A stretch of 64,000 nt of DNA from Sulfurospirillum sp. (GTDB lineage Bacteria > Campylobacterota > Campylobacteria > Campylobacterales > Sulfurospirillaceae), in NCBI GenBank assembly GCA_014859685.1, contig JACUTU010000001.1, forward strand, positions 211,416 through 275,415, written 5' to 3'. Both the position numbers and the translations under genes were made by a program. Under the pieces are notes generated by a model. The model did not search any database. It saw only the letters and a program-made list of their open reading frames with translations, and was not told where the DNA came from. Below are positions 48,922-56,764 of the stretch, piece by piece (the stretch's first letter is position 1; the number at the start of each line of letters is the position of its first letter).

Positions 48922-48926
48922 GCACT
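48902..48926. terminator. Terminator after the DksA-like gene
   Basis: AGTGCTTA at 48902-48909 pairs with TAAGCACT at 48919-48926, followed by TATTTTATCTT. It overlaps the ends of both convergent genes and may serve both strands. Confidence 0.6.
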
Positions 48927-50299
48927 TATTTTATCTTAAAATGAGTTAGCTGTTTTTTGAGTGTATTTCTAGCGATTTGCAAGGCAGCTGCGAGTTGACT
49001 TATATTTGGGCATAACTTAAAACAAGTTGATAAAAAGATGGCATCAAATTTAGCTTTCATCTCTCCCGCTTGCATTATGTCATTTTGGAGGAGCAAAGTT
49101 TTTATGATTTTCTGAAGTTTCTCATCTGTATTATTTGTGTTATCTAAAGAGTTTAAACGCATATCTTCTTTTGTTAAAATAGTATCTCTTGCATTGAGAC
49201 ATGCACTATAGATAACATTGCGAAGTTCTCTTATATTTCCCTCCCATGGTTGCTTTTTTATAGCATTGCATGCCTCTCTAGAAATGCCTGTGATTTTTGT
49301 CTGTAACTCTTTGTTTGCTTTGTTTATAAAATATTCACACAAAATTGGAATATCTTGTATGCGTTGTGCGAGTGTGGGCATGGTGATGGAGAGTATGGAA
49401 AGTCTAAAATACAAATCCTCTCTAAAAGCCCCTGATCTACTTTTTTCTTTGAGATCTACATTTGTAGCTGAGATGATTCGACCTTCAAATCCAATCTCTT
49501 TGTTACCACCAACTCTGCGAAACTGTTTTGTTTCTAAAAAACGCAATAATTTACTTTGGAGTTGACTATCAAGCTCACCTATCTCGTCTAAAAAGAGTGT
49601 GCCACCTTTTGCTTGTTCAGCGTAGCCTATGTGCTGTTTTTCTGCACTTGTAAAAGATCCTTTTTCATGTCCAAAAAGCTGGCTTTCAAAAAGTTCTTTT
49701 GGTATGGAAGCACAGTTGATCGCTATAAAAGGCTCATTGGGCCTATCAGAATTTTTATGGATAAGACTTGCTATGAGCTCCTTGCCTGTACCTGTTTGTC
49801 CATAAATTAAGACAGCTAGGTTATTATTTGCAGCAATGCCAATCTTGTGGTAAATCTCTTTCATTGTTTCAAACGAACCTACAAACTCATTTTTTTGTTC
49901 TACATGTAAGCCAACACTAAGAACTTCTTTTTGGCTTGGAACAGTGACAAATTTATTTACTATCTCCATCAACTGTGATTCATCAAACGGTTTTTGCAAG
50001 ATATCTTTGATGCCAATTTTTGAGGCTTCTATCATATTTTCAGGCGTTGTATAAGCTGTCATGAGAATGATAGGCAGATTTAAACCCTTTTTTTTAAATG
50101 ACTTGATGAGATCTATGCCCGTGAGTGTATCGGTAAGCATCACATCTACAATAAGTAAGTCTATGTTTTGTTCCTCGATAGAGTTTGTTATATCAAATTC
50201 TAAGCCAGTAAATTGTACTGTTTTGTGATTATGGCGTTGAAGAATTTTTGACAGTGAGTAACGGATGTCTTGTTGATCGTCTATGATCGCTATTTTCAT
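48926..50299 (-). CDS. NtrC-type sigma-54 response regulator of the arsenate respiration operon
   Basis: A 457-residue regulator with a receiver domain (phospho-acceptor D52), an AAA+ domain with GQTGTGKE (167-174) and GGTLFLDEIGELD, and a C-terminal Fis-type helix-turn-helix (AAALQIARNTLKKQL). The sigma-54 contact loop, usually GAFTGA, reads GSFTSA (214-219). The central threonine is kept. It overlaps the kinase gene by four bases, and both lie beside a PhnD-like sensor, divergent from arrCAB. By analogy with AioXSR and ArxXSR it should activate arr in response to arsenic. A palindrome variant (49908) encodes Gly-Leu-His-Val-Glu in the linker. Confidence 0.88.
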   Translation of the reverse strand: MKIAIIDDQQDIRYSLSKILQRHNHKTVQFTGLEFDITNSIEEQNIDLLIVDVMLTDTLTGIDLIKSFKKKGLNLPIILMTAYTTPENMIEASKIGIKDILQKPFDESQLMEIVNKFVTVPSQKEVLSVGLHVEQKNEFVGSFETMKEIYHKIGIAANNNLAVLIYGQTGTGKELIASLIHKNSDRPNEPFIAINCASIPKELFESQLFGHEKGSFTSAEKQHIGYAEQAKGGTLFLDEIGELDSQLQSKLLRFLETKQFRRVGGNKEIGFEGRIISATNVDLKEKSRSGAFREDLYFRLSILSITMPTLAQRIQDIPILCEYFINKANKELQTKITGISREACNAIKKQPWEGNIRELRNVIYSACLNARDTILTKEDMRLNSLDNTNNTDEKLQKIIKTLLLQNDIMQAGEMKAKFDAIFLSTCFKLCPNISQLAAALQIARNTLKKQLTHFKIK

Positions 50300-51663
50300 T
50301 TTTTTTCTCTCAAAGGTATGTAAAGATAAAATGTTGTTATCTCATTTTCACTGATGAATTCAATATATCCACCACCAAGATAAATAATTTTGTATATACT
50401 AAAAAGCCCCAGATCTGAACCATCTTTTTTGGTTGTAAAAAATGGTTTAAAAAGATTTTCTTTTGTTCTAGTATCCATGTTCATACCATGATTTTGAACA
50501 CTTAAAAGAGACAGATTTTGATCATATTGTCCCCATCGCAACTCTATGATGCTGTGTTTATATGATGCATCTATGGCATTGTTTAAAAGATTGATGAGGA
50601 TAAGTTCTATCGCTTTTGGGTTGAGTTTCGCCATAAAATTATCTTGTATAAAGGTTTTGATTTGGAGTTTTTTTTCAGTGCATTTCGGACGCAAAAGCGC
50701 AACACTTTCTTTTACAAAAATGCTTACATGTAAGGGTTCATCTTTTATTATATCGATAGGTCTGGCGAGTGCTAAAAAGTCCATGACTTGATGGTCGATA
50801 CGCATAAGAGCGTTATGAATAAGAGACATATCTTCTTTGTCTGGTGGTGTATCTTTTGGAATGAGTAGTTTAAGTGGCTGCATCAAGTTTTTTATCTCAT
50901 GAGCAAAAGAAGCACTGATGTTACTTAAAATAGTAAGTGATTGTAAAATATTTGTATTTTTTTCTTCTTTTTCTATAGCTGTACGCATATCTTGCATAAA
51001 TTTAGTTGTAGAATGAATAAGATCCGTAATCTCATCATTTTCCCAGCCATTGTAGTACATTACATGTGACCATTTTTTCTCAATAATCGCTTGAGCATTA
51101 TTTGTGAGCAGATCAAGTCTTGCTAAAAGTTTTCCCATAAAGATATTTGCTATCAAAAATGATAGAAGTGCTACGATGATAAATAGTGCCATCTGTATCA
51201 AAAAACTCTCTTTGATGAGATCAAAAAAACTTTGTTGCTCTACTTCAAGCACAAAAGAGCCAAATTCAACATCATCTTGTTTAAAAGGAACTACAAAAAG
51301 ATTTTTAAAATTCGCCATCGTATCATTGATGCGAAACTTTTTTGTATCTGTATGGGCTAGCACTCTGTTTAAATTATCAACAAATCCAGCGCTTTTTATC
51401 ATCTCACTCGCACTGAGAGTTTTTAAGAATTTGTAGAGTTCCCAATTATCTCTTGCAAGTACAAATTGACCTATAAACGCTTTATTAGAGTTGATATTGG
51501 TGCGAATGAGCTCATCGATAAGGATAGCAGAGTTGTTTTTGTGCATATCTATATTTATAAGAATAGAAACTGAAGAGATAGAAAGTACGACAAAAAAGAT
51601 CAAAACAGCAAGTTTTATGCGAACTGAAAGTGAAAAAATAAAGTATAAAAGCTTGTTGATCAT
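50296..51663 (-). CDS. Sensor histidine kinase partner of the arr regulator
   Basis: A 455-residue kinase with two membrane helices (about 17-38 and 155-178) around a periplasmic domain of some 115 residues, then a signalling helix, the phospho-acceptor H255 in ASFAHEIKNLMQPL, and an ATPase domain with NLLNNAIDAS and DLGLFSIYKI. The G1 position that normally reads DxG appears as NHG, a mild deviation. It should receive a signal from the periplasmic PhnD-like protein whose gene overlaps its start by four bases. Palindrome copies lie at 50723 and, degraded, near 51060. Confidence 0.88.
   Translation of the reverse strand: MINKLLYFIFSLSVRIKLAVLIFFVVLSISSVSILINIDMHKNNSAILIDELIRTNINSNKAFIGQFVLARDNWELYKFLKTLSASEMIKSAGFVDNLNRVLAHTDTKKFRINDTMANFKNLFVVPFKQDDVEFGSFVLEVEQQSFFDLIKESFLIQMALFIIVALLSFLIANIFMGKLLARLDLLTNNAQAIIEKKWSHVMYYNGWENDEITDLIHSTTKFMQDMRTAIEKEEKNTNILQSLTILSNISASFAHEIKNLMQPLKLLIPKDTPPDKEDMSLIHNALMRIDHQVMDFLALARPIDIIKDEPLHVSIFVKESVALLRPKCTEKKLQIKTFIQDNFMAKLNPKAIELILINLLNNAIDASYKHSIIELRWGQYDQNLSLLSVQNHGMNMDTRTKENLFKPFFTTKKDGSDLGLFSIYKIIYLGGGYIEFISENEITTFYLYIPLREKK
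50723..50734. repeat. Dispersed palindrome copy, perfect CTTACATGTAAG
   Basis: Inside the histidine kinase gene, reading Glu-Pro-Leu-His-Val-Ser on the gene strand. Confidence 0.8.
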
Positions 51664-52532
51664 TCAGCATCTTCTATGGTTTTAAGCATATCAGCTACAT
51701 TGCTATAATCTTGCGTGCTTGGAGTGTCAAATCTATCAAGAGAGAGTTTATTGAGAATTGTTTTGCCATAAGCATCTTCGTGCATATTTAAAAAAGCTTT
51801 TTGCAAAGTTTGAAATGTTTTTGATGCGATAGTGCTTCTTGCAACAATAGGAGAGTTTGCATAAGGTCCTAATACTTGTATGACTTTAATCTCTTGAATC
51901 GCTTTTGGATATTTTTCTGTAAAACGAGTATAAACAATACTATCCACACTCGCTCCATCAACAAAACCCTCGATTACTGCTTTGATCGATTCGCCATGTT
52001 CATAAGTGTATAGAAAAGAGCGAAAAAAGGCTGACATATTTATATCGTTACTCAAGAGAAAATATCTAGGAGCTATTGAACCTGAATTGCTTTGTGGGTC
52101 TGTAAATGCAAAAATTGCATCTTTGAAATCAAGTAAAGAGTTATATGGATTAGTTTTTTTTGTGATGATAAAAGAGTAGTATTGATCACTCCCATCTACT
52201 ATGGGAATAGCTAAAAGTTTTCCTGCGCCTTCTTGTTTTAGTTTTGTATAGCTTGAGTTGCATACATAAGCGATATCAACTCTCTTGTCTTTGATGAAAG
52301 TATTCATCTCTTCATAGTTTTTTGAAAAAAGTATTTCTACATCAAAGTCACTTTGTTGCTCAAGGTATTTTTCCCAATCCATAAAATTTTTTAAATCATC
52401 CTTAAAAACAGTTCCTGTTAAACCTAAGATAATCTTTTCTTTTGCGCTTGCATTTAAAGAAAGGAAGCACAGCATCAATGTGATGGTCAAAAATTTTACT
52501 TTACTGGTCAAATTTTGCATATCAAAAAACAT
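51660..52532 (-). CDS. PhnD-like periplasmic binding protein, probable arsenic/oxyanion sensor
   Basis: A 290-residue substrate-binding protein with a signal peptide ending near NASA-KEK and the PhnD/phosphonate-binding fold (LGLTGTVFKDDLKNF, VDIAYVCNSSYTKL, DPQSNSGSIAPRYFL). C91 is the only cysteine after the signal peptide and lies at the ligand-binding strand, as the essential cysteine of the arsenite sensor AioX does. There is no ABC permease nearby; instead a kinase and regulator follow, so it should be a sensor. Start ATG 52532 has an AAGG ribosome-binding site. Confidence 0.85.
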   Translation of the reverse strand: MFFDMQNLTSKVKFLTITLMLCFLSLNASAKEKIILGLTGTVFKDDLKNFMDWEKYLEQQSDFDVEILFSKNYEEMNTFIKDKRVDIAYVCNSSYTKLKQEGAGKLLAIPIVDGSDQYYSFIITKKTNPYNSLLDFKDAIFAFTDPQSNSGSIAPRYFLLSNDINMSAFFRSFLYTYEHGESIKAVIEGFVDGASVDSIVYTRFTEKYPKAIQEIKVIQVLGPYANSPIVARSTIASKTFQTLQKAFLNMHEDAYGKTILNKLSLDRFDTPSTQDYSNVADMLKTIEDAE

Positions 52533-52651: not shown

Positions 52652-53488
52652 ATGCATTTATTGTGGGACATAAGGGTCTCTTTAGATCTTTTTTTAGGTG
52701 GTTTGGGTGTAGGCGCTTTTTTGGTGGGGGCAGTACTATTTTTCATTGATGCTAGGTTGTACGAAAGTATAATCAAAAAAGCATTTATTATAGCTCCCAT
52801 CATGGTGATGACGGGATTATTGATGCTTTTAAGTGAACTTGGAAGACCAATGAATGTTATCAAGACAATATATGCAGTTAATCCAACTTCATTTATGTCT
52901 ATTGGCATCTTTGTACAAAGTGTATTTGTGGCAGTTGCGCTACTTGTTGCATTTTCAACTCTTTCTAAAAAAATCAAAGATATAAACAAAGTGTTAGTTT
53001 ATATAACAGTATCACTTGCAGGTCTAGTTGGTTTGTATCATGGTTTTTTGCTTACAGGGATATCAATAGAGCCTTGGAATAATGCTCTTCCTGTCATGTT
53101 TTTAACTTCTTCTGTCATCGCTGGAAGTTCTTTAGTTTTTTTATTGTCTGTAGATAAAATGGATGAGTTGTTTACTAATTTAAAACTCCCAGTTGTTATC
53201 AACCTTGTACTTACTCTTCAATTTGCAGCGGTATTTATATGGGTTTATAACCTTGCACTCACTTCAGCTTCTTCAAGACATATTTATGAAGTGCTTATGA
53301 GTGGTTTCGGTATGGAATTTTGGGTGCTGAGCGTTCTTGTTGGTATCGTAATTCCAGCTGGATTATTGACATTTGTTTTGCTTAAACAAGTTTCTTTTAA
53401 AGTAGTCGCATTACCGGTATTCGTCATGATGATCGCAGGAAGTTTTTTCTTTAAAAATTTAGTGGTCTATCTTGGCCAAGCTATATAA
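52652..53488 (+). CDS. arrC: Respiratory arsenate reductase membrane subunit (NrfD/PsrC-like)
   Basis: A 278-residue NrfD-type membrane protein with about eight helices (LFLGGLGVGAFLVGAVLFF near the start). It should oxidise menaquinol and pass electrons to ArrB. An AAGGAGTC ribosome-binding site precedes the ATG. As the first gene of arrCAB, it is followed by arrA after ten bases. On its own it could equally be a polysulfide reductase subunit; the call depends on arrA. Confidence 0.8.
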   Translation: MHLLWDIRVSLDLFLGGLGVGAFLVGAVLFFIDARLYESIIKKAFIIAPIMVMTGLLMLLSELGRPMNVIKTIYAVNPTSFMSIGIFVQSVFVAVALLVAFSTLSKKIKDINKVLVYITVSLAGLVGLYHGFLLTGISIEPWNNALPVMFLTSSVIAGSSLVFLLSVDKMDELFTNLKLPVVINLVLTLQFAAVFIWVYNLALTSASSRHIYEVLMSGFGMEFWVLSVLVGIVIPAGLLTFVLLKQVSFKVVALPVFVMMIAGSFFFKNLVVYLGQAI

Positions 53489-53498
53489 GGAGTCAAAA

Positions 53499-56051
53499 AT
53501 GAGTTTAAATAGAAGAGATTTTATAAAAACAACAGCAGCAACAGCTGCAGTAGCTTCAAGTATGTCTTTTTTTTCTACAGAAGCAGAAGCAAAAATAGGT
53601 GAGCTAGCATACGAAGGTGAAGTTGGTAAGTGGATAAGCTCTACTTGTCAGGGTTGTACAAGCTGGTGTCCTATTCAAGGACTTGTTGTTGATGGAAAAG
53701 TGATAAAAGTAAGAGGCAATCCAAACTCTCCAGCACAAAGAATTTGTCCACGACCACATCTTGCATTGCAACAAGTATATGATCCAGATCGTGTAAAAAC
53801 TCCGCTCAAGCGAATTAATCCTGAAAAAGGAAGAGGCATTGATCCTCAATTTGTTCCTATTACTTGGGATGAAGCTATCAATACAATAGCTGAGAAAATT
53901 ATGAATCTTATAGACACGGGCGAAACACACAAATTTTTATTGATGCGTGGTCGTTATACCTACATGAGAGAGATTATTTATGGAACTTTTCCAAAACTTA
54001 TCGGTAGCCCGAACAGTATCTCTCACTCAGCTCTTTGTGCAGAAGCAGAAAACTTTGGTCGTTACTATACTGAGGGTCTTTGGGGTTATTCGGATGTAGA
54101 CTTTGATAATACAAAATACCTTCTCGCTTGGGGTTGGGATGGAATTGCATCAAATCGCCAAACTCCATGGTTTATAAAACAAATGGGCGGTCTTATGGAT
54201 AGAGCTCGTATTACATGTATCGATCCTAGATTTTCAGCTACAGCAGCTAAAGCAGATAAATGGTTGCCTGTAATTCCTGGCATGGATGGTGCTCTTGCAG
54301 TTGCTTTTGCACATATTATCTTGGCTGAGGGCAGATGGAATAAAACATTTGTTGGCAATTTTGAAGATGGCAAAAATTATTTTGTTGCTGGAAGTGAAGT
54401 TCCGGCTGAAGTGATGGTTGAAGACAAGCTAGTTCCTGTAGTGTTCAATGAAATTCATACAAATGGTGTTGTAGCATGGTGGAATTTAGAGCTTAAAGAT
54501 AGAACTCCAGAATGGGCAGAAAAACTTTGTGGCATTAGTGCTGAAGATATCAAAACGGTTGCAAGAGATTTTGCAGCGGCCGGAAGTAGAGCTATATCTT
54601 GGGTTAGTCCAGGGGCTGCTATGCAAATCCGTGGAGGTTTTTCATCTATGGCAGGTCATGCGCTTAATGGTCTTGTCGGTTCAGTTGATGCTGAGGGCGG
54701 TATCTTGGAGTATTCTTCGGTGCCACATGCACATACTCCTGATGTCAAACCTTACATTGATTCACGATTTAAAAATAGCTTGAAGCAACATAAAATTGAT
54801 CAAAGAGGAACAAAAGATCTTCCAGCACTCAAAGAAAAAAGTGGTGGTGGCGTTGTGACAAGTCGTGTTGCTAAAGGTGTTCTTGAAGAAAATCCTTATG
54901 ATATCAAAGTAGCTCTTTCTTATTGGAATAACTTTGTATTCTCATCTATGGGTACAAAAGATTGGGAAAAAGCAATGGCAAAGATTCCATTTTACGCACA
55001 TATAACCACAAACTTGACCGAGATGAGTATGTTCGCAGATATCGTACTTCCAGCTAAGATGCATATGTTTGAACGGTATGGATATCTTTATACAAAACAA
55101 AATTTACAAAGTTATATGTCTATTCATCAACCTATGATCAAACCATACGCAGATGCAAAAACAGATGAGACAGAAGTGCCATTTATGATAGCACAAGCTT
55201 TGGCAAAAAAGGGCTTTGATTTGCCTTTGAAATACTACCAAGAAAATTTCAAAGATCCTGAAACTGGCAAAACACCACAAACTCCAGAAGAGTTTGATCT
55301 TTACGCTGTGAAGTTTTATACGAAACCTGTTTGGGATGGAAGTAGCAATCAAAAAGGTGATACTATCAATAGCTGGAATGAATTACTAGAAAAAGGTGTT
55401 TGGAAAACAAAAAAATTTGTACCAGGCCACAAAATAGACAAGTTTAAAACTGCAACTAAAAAGTTTGAATTTTTTAGTGAAACACTCAAAAAAGCTATGA
55501 GTGGACATGCTGAAAAACACAGTATGAGTCTTGATGAGGCATTTGAAGCAGCCAACTATACATGTAGGGGTGAAGTGAGTTTTGTACCACATTATGAGCC
55601 ACCAGTAAGACATGGCGATGAGGGAACTTATCCGTTTATCGTATTTGATCACAGATCACGACTCAATCGTGAGGGAAGAAGCCAAAATACACCATGGTAT
55701 TATGATATGCTCGATGTTGATCCAGGCGGTGAATGTAATAAAGATGTTATGAAAATTAACCCACTTGACGGTAAAAAATATGGCTTAAACAATGGCGATA
55801 AAATCCGCATAACAACTATGTTTGGTTCTGTTGAGAGTGAAGTAAAACTTTGGGAAGGTGTACGACCAGGAACTTGCGTGAAATGTTATGGTCAAGGTCA
55901 CTGGGCATATGGACGCGTTGGTAGTGAAAATTTTGGATCAAAACCAAGAGGCTATAATAACAATGAGATCTACTGTTATGACTGGGAACGCCTTAGTGGT
56001 TCTAGTCCTCGACACGGTGGTCACACTCGCGCAAAAATCGAAAAGATATAG
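53499..56051 (+). CDS. arrA: Respiratory arsenate reductase catalytic subunit
   Basis: An 850-residue Tat-exported molybdopterin oxidoreductase. The signal has NRRDFIK (4-10) and a cut near AEA-KIG; C50, C53, C57 and C83 bind a [4Fe-4S] cluster and C180 (SHSALC) is the likely Mo ligand. RGRY at 150-153 is the motif said to separate ArrA from ArxA. GRYYTEGLWGY (187-197) and NLELKDRTPEW are, from memory, the blocks used for arrA-specific primers. The length fits ArrA (about 850) better than PsrA or PhsA (about 760). It reduces arsenate to arsenite in the periplasm. I start at ATG 53499, with AAGGAG upstream. Confidence 0.87.
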   Translation: MSLNRRDFIKTTAATAAVASSMSFFSTEAEAKIGELAYEGEVGKWISSTCQGCTSWCPIQGLVVDGKVIKVRGNPNSPAQRICPRPHLALQQVYDPDRVKTPLKRINPEKGRGIDPQFVPITWDEAINTIAEKIMNLIDTGETHKFLLMRGRYTYMREIIYGTFPKLIGSPNSISHSALCAEAENFGRYYTEGLWGYSDVDFDNTKYLLAWGWDGIASNRQTPWFIKQMGGLMDRARITCIDPRFSATAAKADKWLPVIPGMDGALAVAFAHIILAEGRWNKTFVGNFEDGKNYFVAGSEVPAEVMVEDKLVPVVFNEIHTNGVVAWWNLELKDRTPEWAEKLCGISAEDIKTVARDFAAAGSRAISWVSPGAAMQIRGGFSSMAGHALNGLVGSVDAEGGILEYSSVPHAHTPDVKPYIDSRFKNSLKQHKIDQRGTKDLPALKEKSGGGVVTSRVAKGVLEENPYDIKVALSYWNNFVFSSMGTKDWEKAMAKIPFYAHITTNLTEMSMFADIVLPAKMHMFERYGYLYTKQNLQSYMSIHQPMIKPYADAKTDETEVPFMIAQALAKKGFDLPLKYYQENFKDPETGKTPQTPEEFDLYAVKFYTKPVWDGSSNQKGDTINSWNELLEKGVWKTKKFVPGHKIDKFKTATKKFEFFSETLKKAMSGHAEKHSMSLDEAFEAANYTCRGEVSFVPHYEPPVRHGDEGTYPFIVFDHRSRLNREGRSQNTPWYYDMLDVDPGGECNKDVMKINPLDGKKYGLNNGDKIRITTMFGSVESEVKLWEGVRPGTCVKCYGQGHWAYGRVGSENFGSKPRGYNNNEIYCYDWERLSGSSPRHGGHTRAKIEKI

Positions 56052-56065
56052 AGAAAGGATAGATT

Positions 56066-56764
56066 ATGGCAAAAAAATATGGAATGATAATTGACCTACA
56101 TAAGTGTGTCGGCTGTGGTGCGTGTGATCTTGCTTGCAAGAGTGAAAACAATACACCTATTGGAATAAACTGGGCAAGTCATACAACTGAAACTCATGGC
56201 GTGTTTCCAAAAGTTAGTTATGAGCACATCCCAACGCTTTGCAACCATTGTGAAGATGCACCTTGTGTAAGAGTATGTCCAACACTTGCGATGCATTATA
56301 ATGATGATGGGCTTGTGGTGCATGATCCTAGTATCTGTATCGGATGTAAGAGTTGTATGCTGGCTGATCCTTATGGAGTTATCCATTTTAACATTGTAGA
56401 TGCGTTTATGGTAGATATCCATGATGATAGTAGTATCGTCAAGGGCGGAACATTTTCTAAAAAAGAATTGAGTGATAAATCAAATGCTCCTTTCCCTAAC
56501 TTTAATGCAGCTCGTGGGGCTGAGGGTTATGAAGCTATAAGAGGTAAAGGTACTGTTGAAAAATGTACCTTCTGTGATCATCGAGTAAAAGAGGGCTTGG
56601 CTCCAGCTTGTGTAGTTGCATGTCCTGCTGATGCAAGAATTTTTGGTGATCTTAATGACGAGAATAGTGAAATCTCAAAAACATTGCTATTATATAAATC
56701 AAAAACATTGCTTCCTGAGCGAGGCACCAAGCCAAAAGTGTTTTATGTAAGAAATTACAACTAA
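56066..56764 (+). CDS. arrB: Respiratory arsenate reductase iron-sulfur subunit
   Basis: A 232-residue ferredoxin-like electron carrier with four cysteine groups: C14, C17, C20, C24; C59, C62, C67, C71; C91, C94, C97; and the C-terminal CTFC...CVVACP group. In the third group the fourth ligand is D101 (CIGCKSCMLAD) instead of the usual cysteine, so this cluster may be [3Fe-4S] or Asp-ligated. It shuttles electrons from ArrC to ArrA. It starts 14 bases after the arrA stop and is followed by a strong terminator. Confidence 0.87.
   Translation: MAKKYGMIIDLHKCVGCGACDLACKSENNTPIGINWASHTTETHGVFPKVSYEHIPTLCNHCEDAPCVRVCPTLAMHYNDDGLVVHDPSICIGCKSCMLADPYGVIHFNIVDAFMVDIHDDSSIVKGGTFSKKELSDKSNAPFPNFNAARGAEGYEAIRGKGTVEKCTFCDHRVKEGLAPACVVACPADARIFGDLNDENSEISKTLLLYKSKTLLPERGTKPKVFYVRNYN

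Follow-up and report, generated by a model that had tools for sequence, protein, structure and literature searches.

Aspartate at a cluster-ligand position of the respiratory arsenate reductase subunit ArrB as a lineage trait of Campylobacterota and a Bacillota group

Does the iron-sulfur subunit of respiratory arsenate reductase, ArrB, always hold its clusters through cysteine alone? The question is raised by a locus of Sulfurospirillum sp. that lies within a 64,000-nucleotide stretch of DNA (the window, to whose numbering our positions refer) and encodes an ArrB with aspartate at one ligand position. ArrB is stated to carry four [4Fe-4S] or four cubane clusters in three papers (PMC8076601, PMC5908839, PMC2500031) and three to four clusters in another (PMC5593903); no Asp ligand is mentioned in the passages of these four that we consulted. 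We recognized no report of ArrB Asp101 in the literature searched, outside which most subscription papers fall, and the sole ArrB structure found (6CZ7 and its sister entries) shows an all-Cys subunit.

Sequence comparison identifies the 56066–56764 open reading frame as the Fe-S subunit of a respiratory arsenate reductase, ArrAB (Table 1). Its gene belongs to an arrCAB operon, in which we set the arrA start at 53499 (mechanical ORF start, 53472), and a divergent arrXSR module occupies 48926–52532. An arsenate-sensing XSR module stands beside a subset of arr loci, and the window locus possesses one, as looked for in a respiratory arsenate reductase. The XSR arrangement of arsenic operons has been described (PMC5908839). 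Window ArrA contains TAT_signal, Molybdop_Fe4S4, and Molybdopterin domains scoring above the Pfam cut-offs, and its best solved relative by phmmer is 6cz7_A (E 4e-281, residues 42–850), with the second match, 2vpw_A, reaching only 7.9e-42. In an ArrA tree, it clusters with the Mesobacillus selenatarsenatis and Shewanella loci. The best solved relative of window ArrB in a sequence search is 6cz7_B (E 1.9e-79), which is also the closest PDB fold to its predicted model (pLDDT 91.6; TM 0.91). The NCBIfam models for ArrA and ArrB look narrow: each is its protein's best match by far, at scores under the cut-off (1076.9 bits against 1600 for ArrA, and 300.6 bits against 450 for ArrB). Since both subunits score well below these thresholds, Campylobacterota arsenate reductases may escape automatic annotation.

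Table 1. Coordinates of the arr locus and of the ArrB motifs discussed in the text (window numbering)
Feature	Position	Strand	Description
arrR	48926..50299	-	sigma-54 type response regulator
arrS	50296..51663	-	sensor histidine kinase
arrX	51660..52532	-	PhnD-like periplasmic oxyanion-binding protein
arrC	52652..53488	+	NrfD-like membrane subunit, predicted quinol site; Pfam NrfD, E 7.2e-21
arrA	53499..56051	+	molybdopterin catalytic subunit, TAT signal
arrB	56066..56764	+	232-aa tetracubane Fe-S subunit, Asp101 type
Second motif, C59, C62, C67, C71	56240..56278	+	C59/C62/C67, predicted FS3 partners of D101
Third motif, C91-x2-C94-x2-C97-x3-D101	56336..56368	+	

An earlier note, made from the letters of this DNA, had reported that the third ArrB motif ends in an Asp encoded by GAT and that the other motifs retain every cysteine. 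Translation of the arrB frame bears out both points. Residue 101 is Asp (GAT at 56366–56368, + strand; codon context CIGCKSCMLADPYGV), and motifs I (C14/17/20/24), II (C59/62/67/71), and IV (C167/170/182/186) are complete. With 15 Cys at its 16 ligand positions, window ArrB falls short of four all-Cys [4Fe-4S] clusters.

The note had further implied that the Asp belongs to the cluster bound by the first three cysteines of motif III itself. Window ArrB residues 47–109 align to residues 172–235 of the E. coli NarH chain, a mapping that assumes one inserted residue between motifs II and III. In this alignment, C59, C62, C67, and C71 fall on NarH 184, 187, 192, and 196, and C91, C94, C97, and D101 fall on 217, 220, 223, and 227. 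NarH FS3 is ligated by Cys184, 187, 192, and 227, and FS4 by Cys196, 217, and 223 (PMC5338063, table). Because D101 aligns to Cys227, an FS3 ligand, it would take a place in FS3 together with C59, C62, and C67, and C91, C94, and C97 would combine with C71 to form FS4, which corrects the assignment implied before. A distant ArrB-like protein (L124, locus 1498–2172) has Thr at the second Cys of motif III, the place of Trp in NarH.

We gathered 110 distinct ArrB-like sequences, 77 of them with an ArrA match spanning >600 residues; removal of L072 and L075 (24% ArrA identity) left 75 ArrB proteins with a linked ArrA. Of the 110, 87 have Cys at residue 101 and 23 have Asp. Among the 75, it is Cys in 52, Asp in 23, and never another residue, and the remaining 15 ligand positions are Cys in every protein. 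The possibility entertained in the earlier note that most ArrB proteins have Asp here is thus at odds with the counts. Cys is probably the ancestral state, because all 35 left-out rows, which are more distant or lack ArrA, carry it at this position. Alignment also answered whether D101 is common to Campylobacterota ArrB: 16 of the 17 distinct proteins have it, as do all seven members of a second, Bacillota group. The named rows of the latter (L020 and L023) are Bacillota, and its five further rows came from class and phylum searches around these two.

Within Campylobacterota, Asp101 is kept down to 59–60% identity. Relatives 77–81% identical to window ArrB share it, so re-reading the base is unnecessary. 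An error in sequencing or assembly is close to inconceivable, as is a broken gene: the reading frame and operon are both intact, and the 22 other distinct Asp proteins, from independent genomes, rule out a sequencing error. With error and chance excluded by its conservation, Asp101 is a genuine lineage trait and no private mutation.

The codons at this position are exclusively GAY (GAT 19 and GAC 4 in the 23 Asp rows) or TGY (TGC 32 and TGT 20 in the 52 Cys rows), so that a switch between the two residues needs two base changes. We sought a compensating Cys elsewhere in the Asp-type proteins and found none in 22 of the 23, which contain exactly 15 Cys; one contains 16. In these 22, Asp therefore stands at a conserved ligand place with no replacement Cys. 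The strict choice of Cys or Asp, the lack of a spare Cys, and the presence of Asp in two lineages speak for a role of the side chain at 101; a position without a ligand role would be expected to drift. We weighed whether Asp101 might nonetheless represent neutral or slightly harmful drift, with an Asp-ligated or defective FS3 being adequate and inherited by descent. This would fit with the close relationship of many Asp rows and with the lack of any residue covarying with 101, as well as with the working wires of EbDH and NarGHI, which tolerate an FS2 of very low potential (PMC8840923). We nevertheless regard drift as improbable, as it sits poorly with Asp in 16 of 17 Campylobacterota and 7 of 7 members of the Bacillota group despite the two-base switch, and with the finding of no Ser, Gly, Asn, Tyr, or Ala at residue 101 in any of the 75 proteins.

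No other ArrB residue among the 75 tracks the switch. The best candidate, P142, is common to 7 of the 52 Cys rows, an association that is not clearly meaningful. We also looked for a link between Asp and arrC and claim none: an ArrC match occurs at 18 of 23 Asp and 18 of 52 Cys loci, but some loci are truncated and the contrast tracks phylogeny.

Across 397 Campylobacterota genomes, ArrB is found in 13 (E ≤ 1e-45). The 39-base pattern for C-x2-C-x2-C-x3-D-P-Y occurs in 12 genomes, once in each and always within ArrB; no non-ArrB protein in the 397 genomes carries this Asp motif. As a control, the pattern read backwards gave 3 matches in 2 of the 397. The thirteenth genome (G222) is the exception: its ArrB, that of Arcobacter cryaerophilus, has Cys at 101. 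One surveyed ArrB (L098) comes from genome G034, which shares a GTDB family with the genome of the window, and is identical to the ArrB of a metagenome-assembled genome of Sulfurospirillaceae (L010), so that the window's host probably belongs to Sulfurospirillaceae. Another (L100/L139, genome G361) is 78% identical to that of the window although its genome belongs to a different family of the order, so transfer of the arr operon is possible in this case. In-frame stops are present in the ArrA frames of L144 (genome of L117) and L055, and plasmids yielded two ArrB-like places at 49.8% identity.

To ask how often Asp arose, we used a tree of the 75 linked ArrA proteins, a sequence that does not contain the ArrB residue under study. 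Asp rows fall in two places on this tree, namely the 7-row group and a Campylobacterota clade of 16 Asp rows, which includes the distant Sulfuricurvum-labelled L012 and also encloses the Cys-type Arcobacter row. The tree needs three changes between Cys and Asp, starred branches force three, and these are probably two gains and one reversal. AU tests on a 30-row ArrA subset, hand-chosen to span the clades and containing 13 Asp rows, rejected a single clade of those 13 (p-AU 9.95e-36) and also a single clade with the Arcobacter Cys row nested within (p-AU 0.0155). The tree of ArrB, a much shorter protein, has two changes, of which starred branches force only one; it rejects an Asp-only clade (p-AU 0.0068) and does not reject one origin with the nested Cys row (p-AU 0.094). 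Two origins of Asp are therefore likely on the strength of the ArrA tree, with weaker support from ArrB, and the data still accommodate one origin with ArrB later transferred on its own.

What might the Asp do? We lean, with some reserve, toward a reading in which the D101 carboxylate replaces the Cys thiolate as the fourth ligand of FS3. The cluster would then be a 3Cys/1Asp [4Fe-4S] center held by C59, C62, C67, and D101, with a shifted and probably lower potential and with its unique iron more labile. From homology, and taking the clusters to be ordered as in NarGHI, we infer this ligation and an electron path of MKH2 -> ArrC -> FS4 -> FS3 -> FS2 -> FS1 -> FS0 -> Mo, in which FS3 would be the next-to-last cluster, before the quinol-side FS4. 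In related enzymes, FS4 adjoins the haem subunit (PMC8840923, PMC8387239). Gain and retention of Asp in at least two lineages would point to tuning of the wire; as a counterpoint, the lack of a covarying ArrB residue gives no sign of wider re-tuning.

An Asp-ligated [4Fe-4S] cluster with a probably lower potential is favored by several precedents. In the same enzyme superfamily, FS0 of NXR is 3Cys/1Asp in a crystal structure (PMC8387239), and Asp319 is a ligand of the Aux II cluster of PqqE (PMC5715301). Among ligand swaps in a [NiFe] hydrogenase, Cys-to-Asp was tolerated best (PMC4070099). In the dark-operative reductase for chlorophyll synthesis, Asp has been proposed to help keep the potential low (PMC5715301), and a lowered potential and labile iron are described for a PsaC variant and the Pyrococcus case, respectively (PMC4070099). 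The FS3 potentials of related enzymes span −200 to +66 mV (PMC8840923, table).

The main rival, to which we give tentative credence, is a [3Fe-4S] FS3 with C59, C62, and C67 as its sole ligands and a potential exceeding that of the usual cluster, D101 being adjacent, non-ligating, and perhaps involved in proton handling. In some ferredoxins, an Asp near a [3Fe-4S] cluster handles a proton, and Asp would be specifically kept if it moved protons or took iron back. D. africanus ferredoxin III, a 7Fe protein, contains a reactive [3Fe-4S] cluster (PMC13111528), its Asp being named as a [4Fe-4S] ligand (PMC5715301), and related enzymes have [3Fe-4S] at the neighboring FS4 (PMC8840923). At the known [3Fe-4S] sites of the superfamily, however, it is the second Cys of motif III that is missing. 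Its place is taken by various residues, as would fit a non-ligand position: the alignments show Ala in 4ydd_B and His in 2ivf_B, and NarH has Trp (Trp220, at a known [3Fe-4S] site, corresponding to ArrB residue 94). Residue 94 is Cys in all 75 ArrB proteins with a linked ArrA. Moreover, the Asp of NXR FS0 is a true [4Fe-4S] ligand (PMC8387239). We see little likelihood in a further variant, a switchable FS3 invented at least twice, whose Asp-bound iron would leave and return ([3Fe-4S] <-> [4Fe-4S]) depending on the redox state or on how much iron is supplied. Such a cluster would change the potential of the next-to-last step of the wire, and the enzyme could be gated or biased toward arsenate reduction.

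In the favored Asp-ligated [4Fe-4S] reading, the cluster type, potential, and function are inferences. Were FS3 to be Asp-ligated throughout Campylobacterota and in one Bacillota group, a sizeable share of arsenate respiration in nature would use a differently tuned wire. The two forms of ArrB, with the Cys-type Arcobacter protein among Asp relatives, constitute a natural test of the effect of one ligand on a multi-cluster chain.

An Asp-type FS3 would depart from the four-[4Fe-4S] description of ArrB, although Asp ligation itself is known elsewhere, the nearest cases being NXR FS0 and the ferredoxins. The ArrAB of Shewanella sp. ANA-3 (6CZ7) is the best sequence match to both window subunits and the best fold match to ArrB, and it has the same four Fe-S motifs; unlike window ArrB, 6cz7_B keeps Cys where D101 aligns (CIGCKKCMNACPYGVI). 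The retrieved loci of other Shewanella (L022, L036, and L053) have no arrC match. In the Asp-ligated ferredoxins, Asp replaces the second Cys of CxxCxxC, unlike in ArrB, where it is the fourth residue of motif III and takes the place of a ligand of the partner cluster. One Asp stands for one Cys in Pyrococcus furiosus ferredoxin, D. africanus ferredoxin III, DPOR, and PqqE Aux II (PMC5715301), and these Asp-ligated [4Fe-4S] proteins have labile iron or a shifted potential. The FS0 of anammox NXR resembles an Asp-type FS3 in being a 3Cys/1Asp wire cluster of the DMSO-reductase superfamily that varies by lineage; it differs in that its Asp lies in the catalytic subunit, the cluster is next to Mo, and the other clusters of NXR are all-Cys (PMC8387239).

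The genome of the window itself (G000) encodes a TtrB/NrfC-like Fe-S protein (contig 17, 15193–16002, − strand, L151; L150, 5191–6003) in which Asp is fourth in motif I (C-x2-C-x2-C-x3-D), beside an NrfD-like protein and a multihaem c cytochrome. The Asp is kept by its two closest relatives found (3/3: L151, L152, and L153), and the weaker matches L154 and L155 have Cys. The NarH pairing would make this Asp a ligand of FS2, and the superfamily may therefore have seen Asp swaps repeatedly.

NarH, EbdB, and PcrB share with ArrB the same fold and ligand pairing, and in each of the three a single cluster, FS4, departs from four-Cys ligation. All three lack the second Cys of motif III and have a [3Fe-4S] FS4, whereas in window ArrB the predicted FS4 ligands are complete and FS3 would be the altered cluster.
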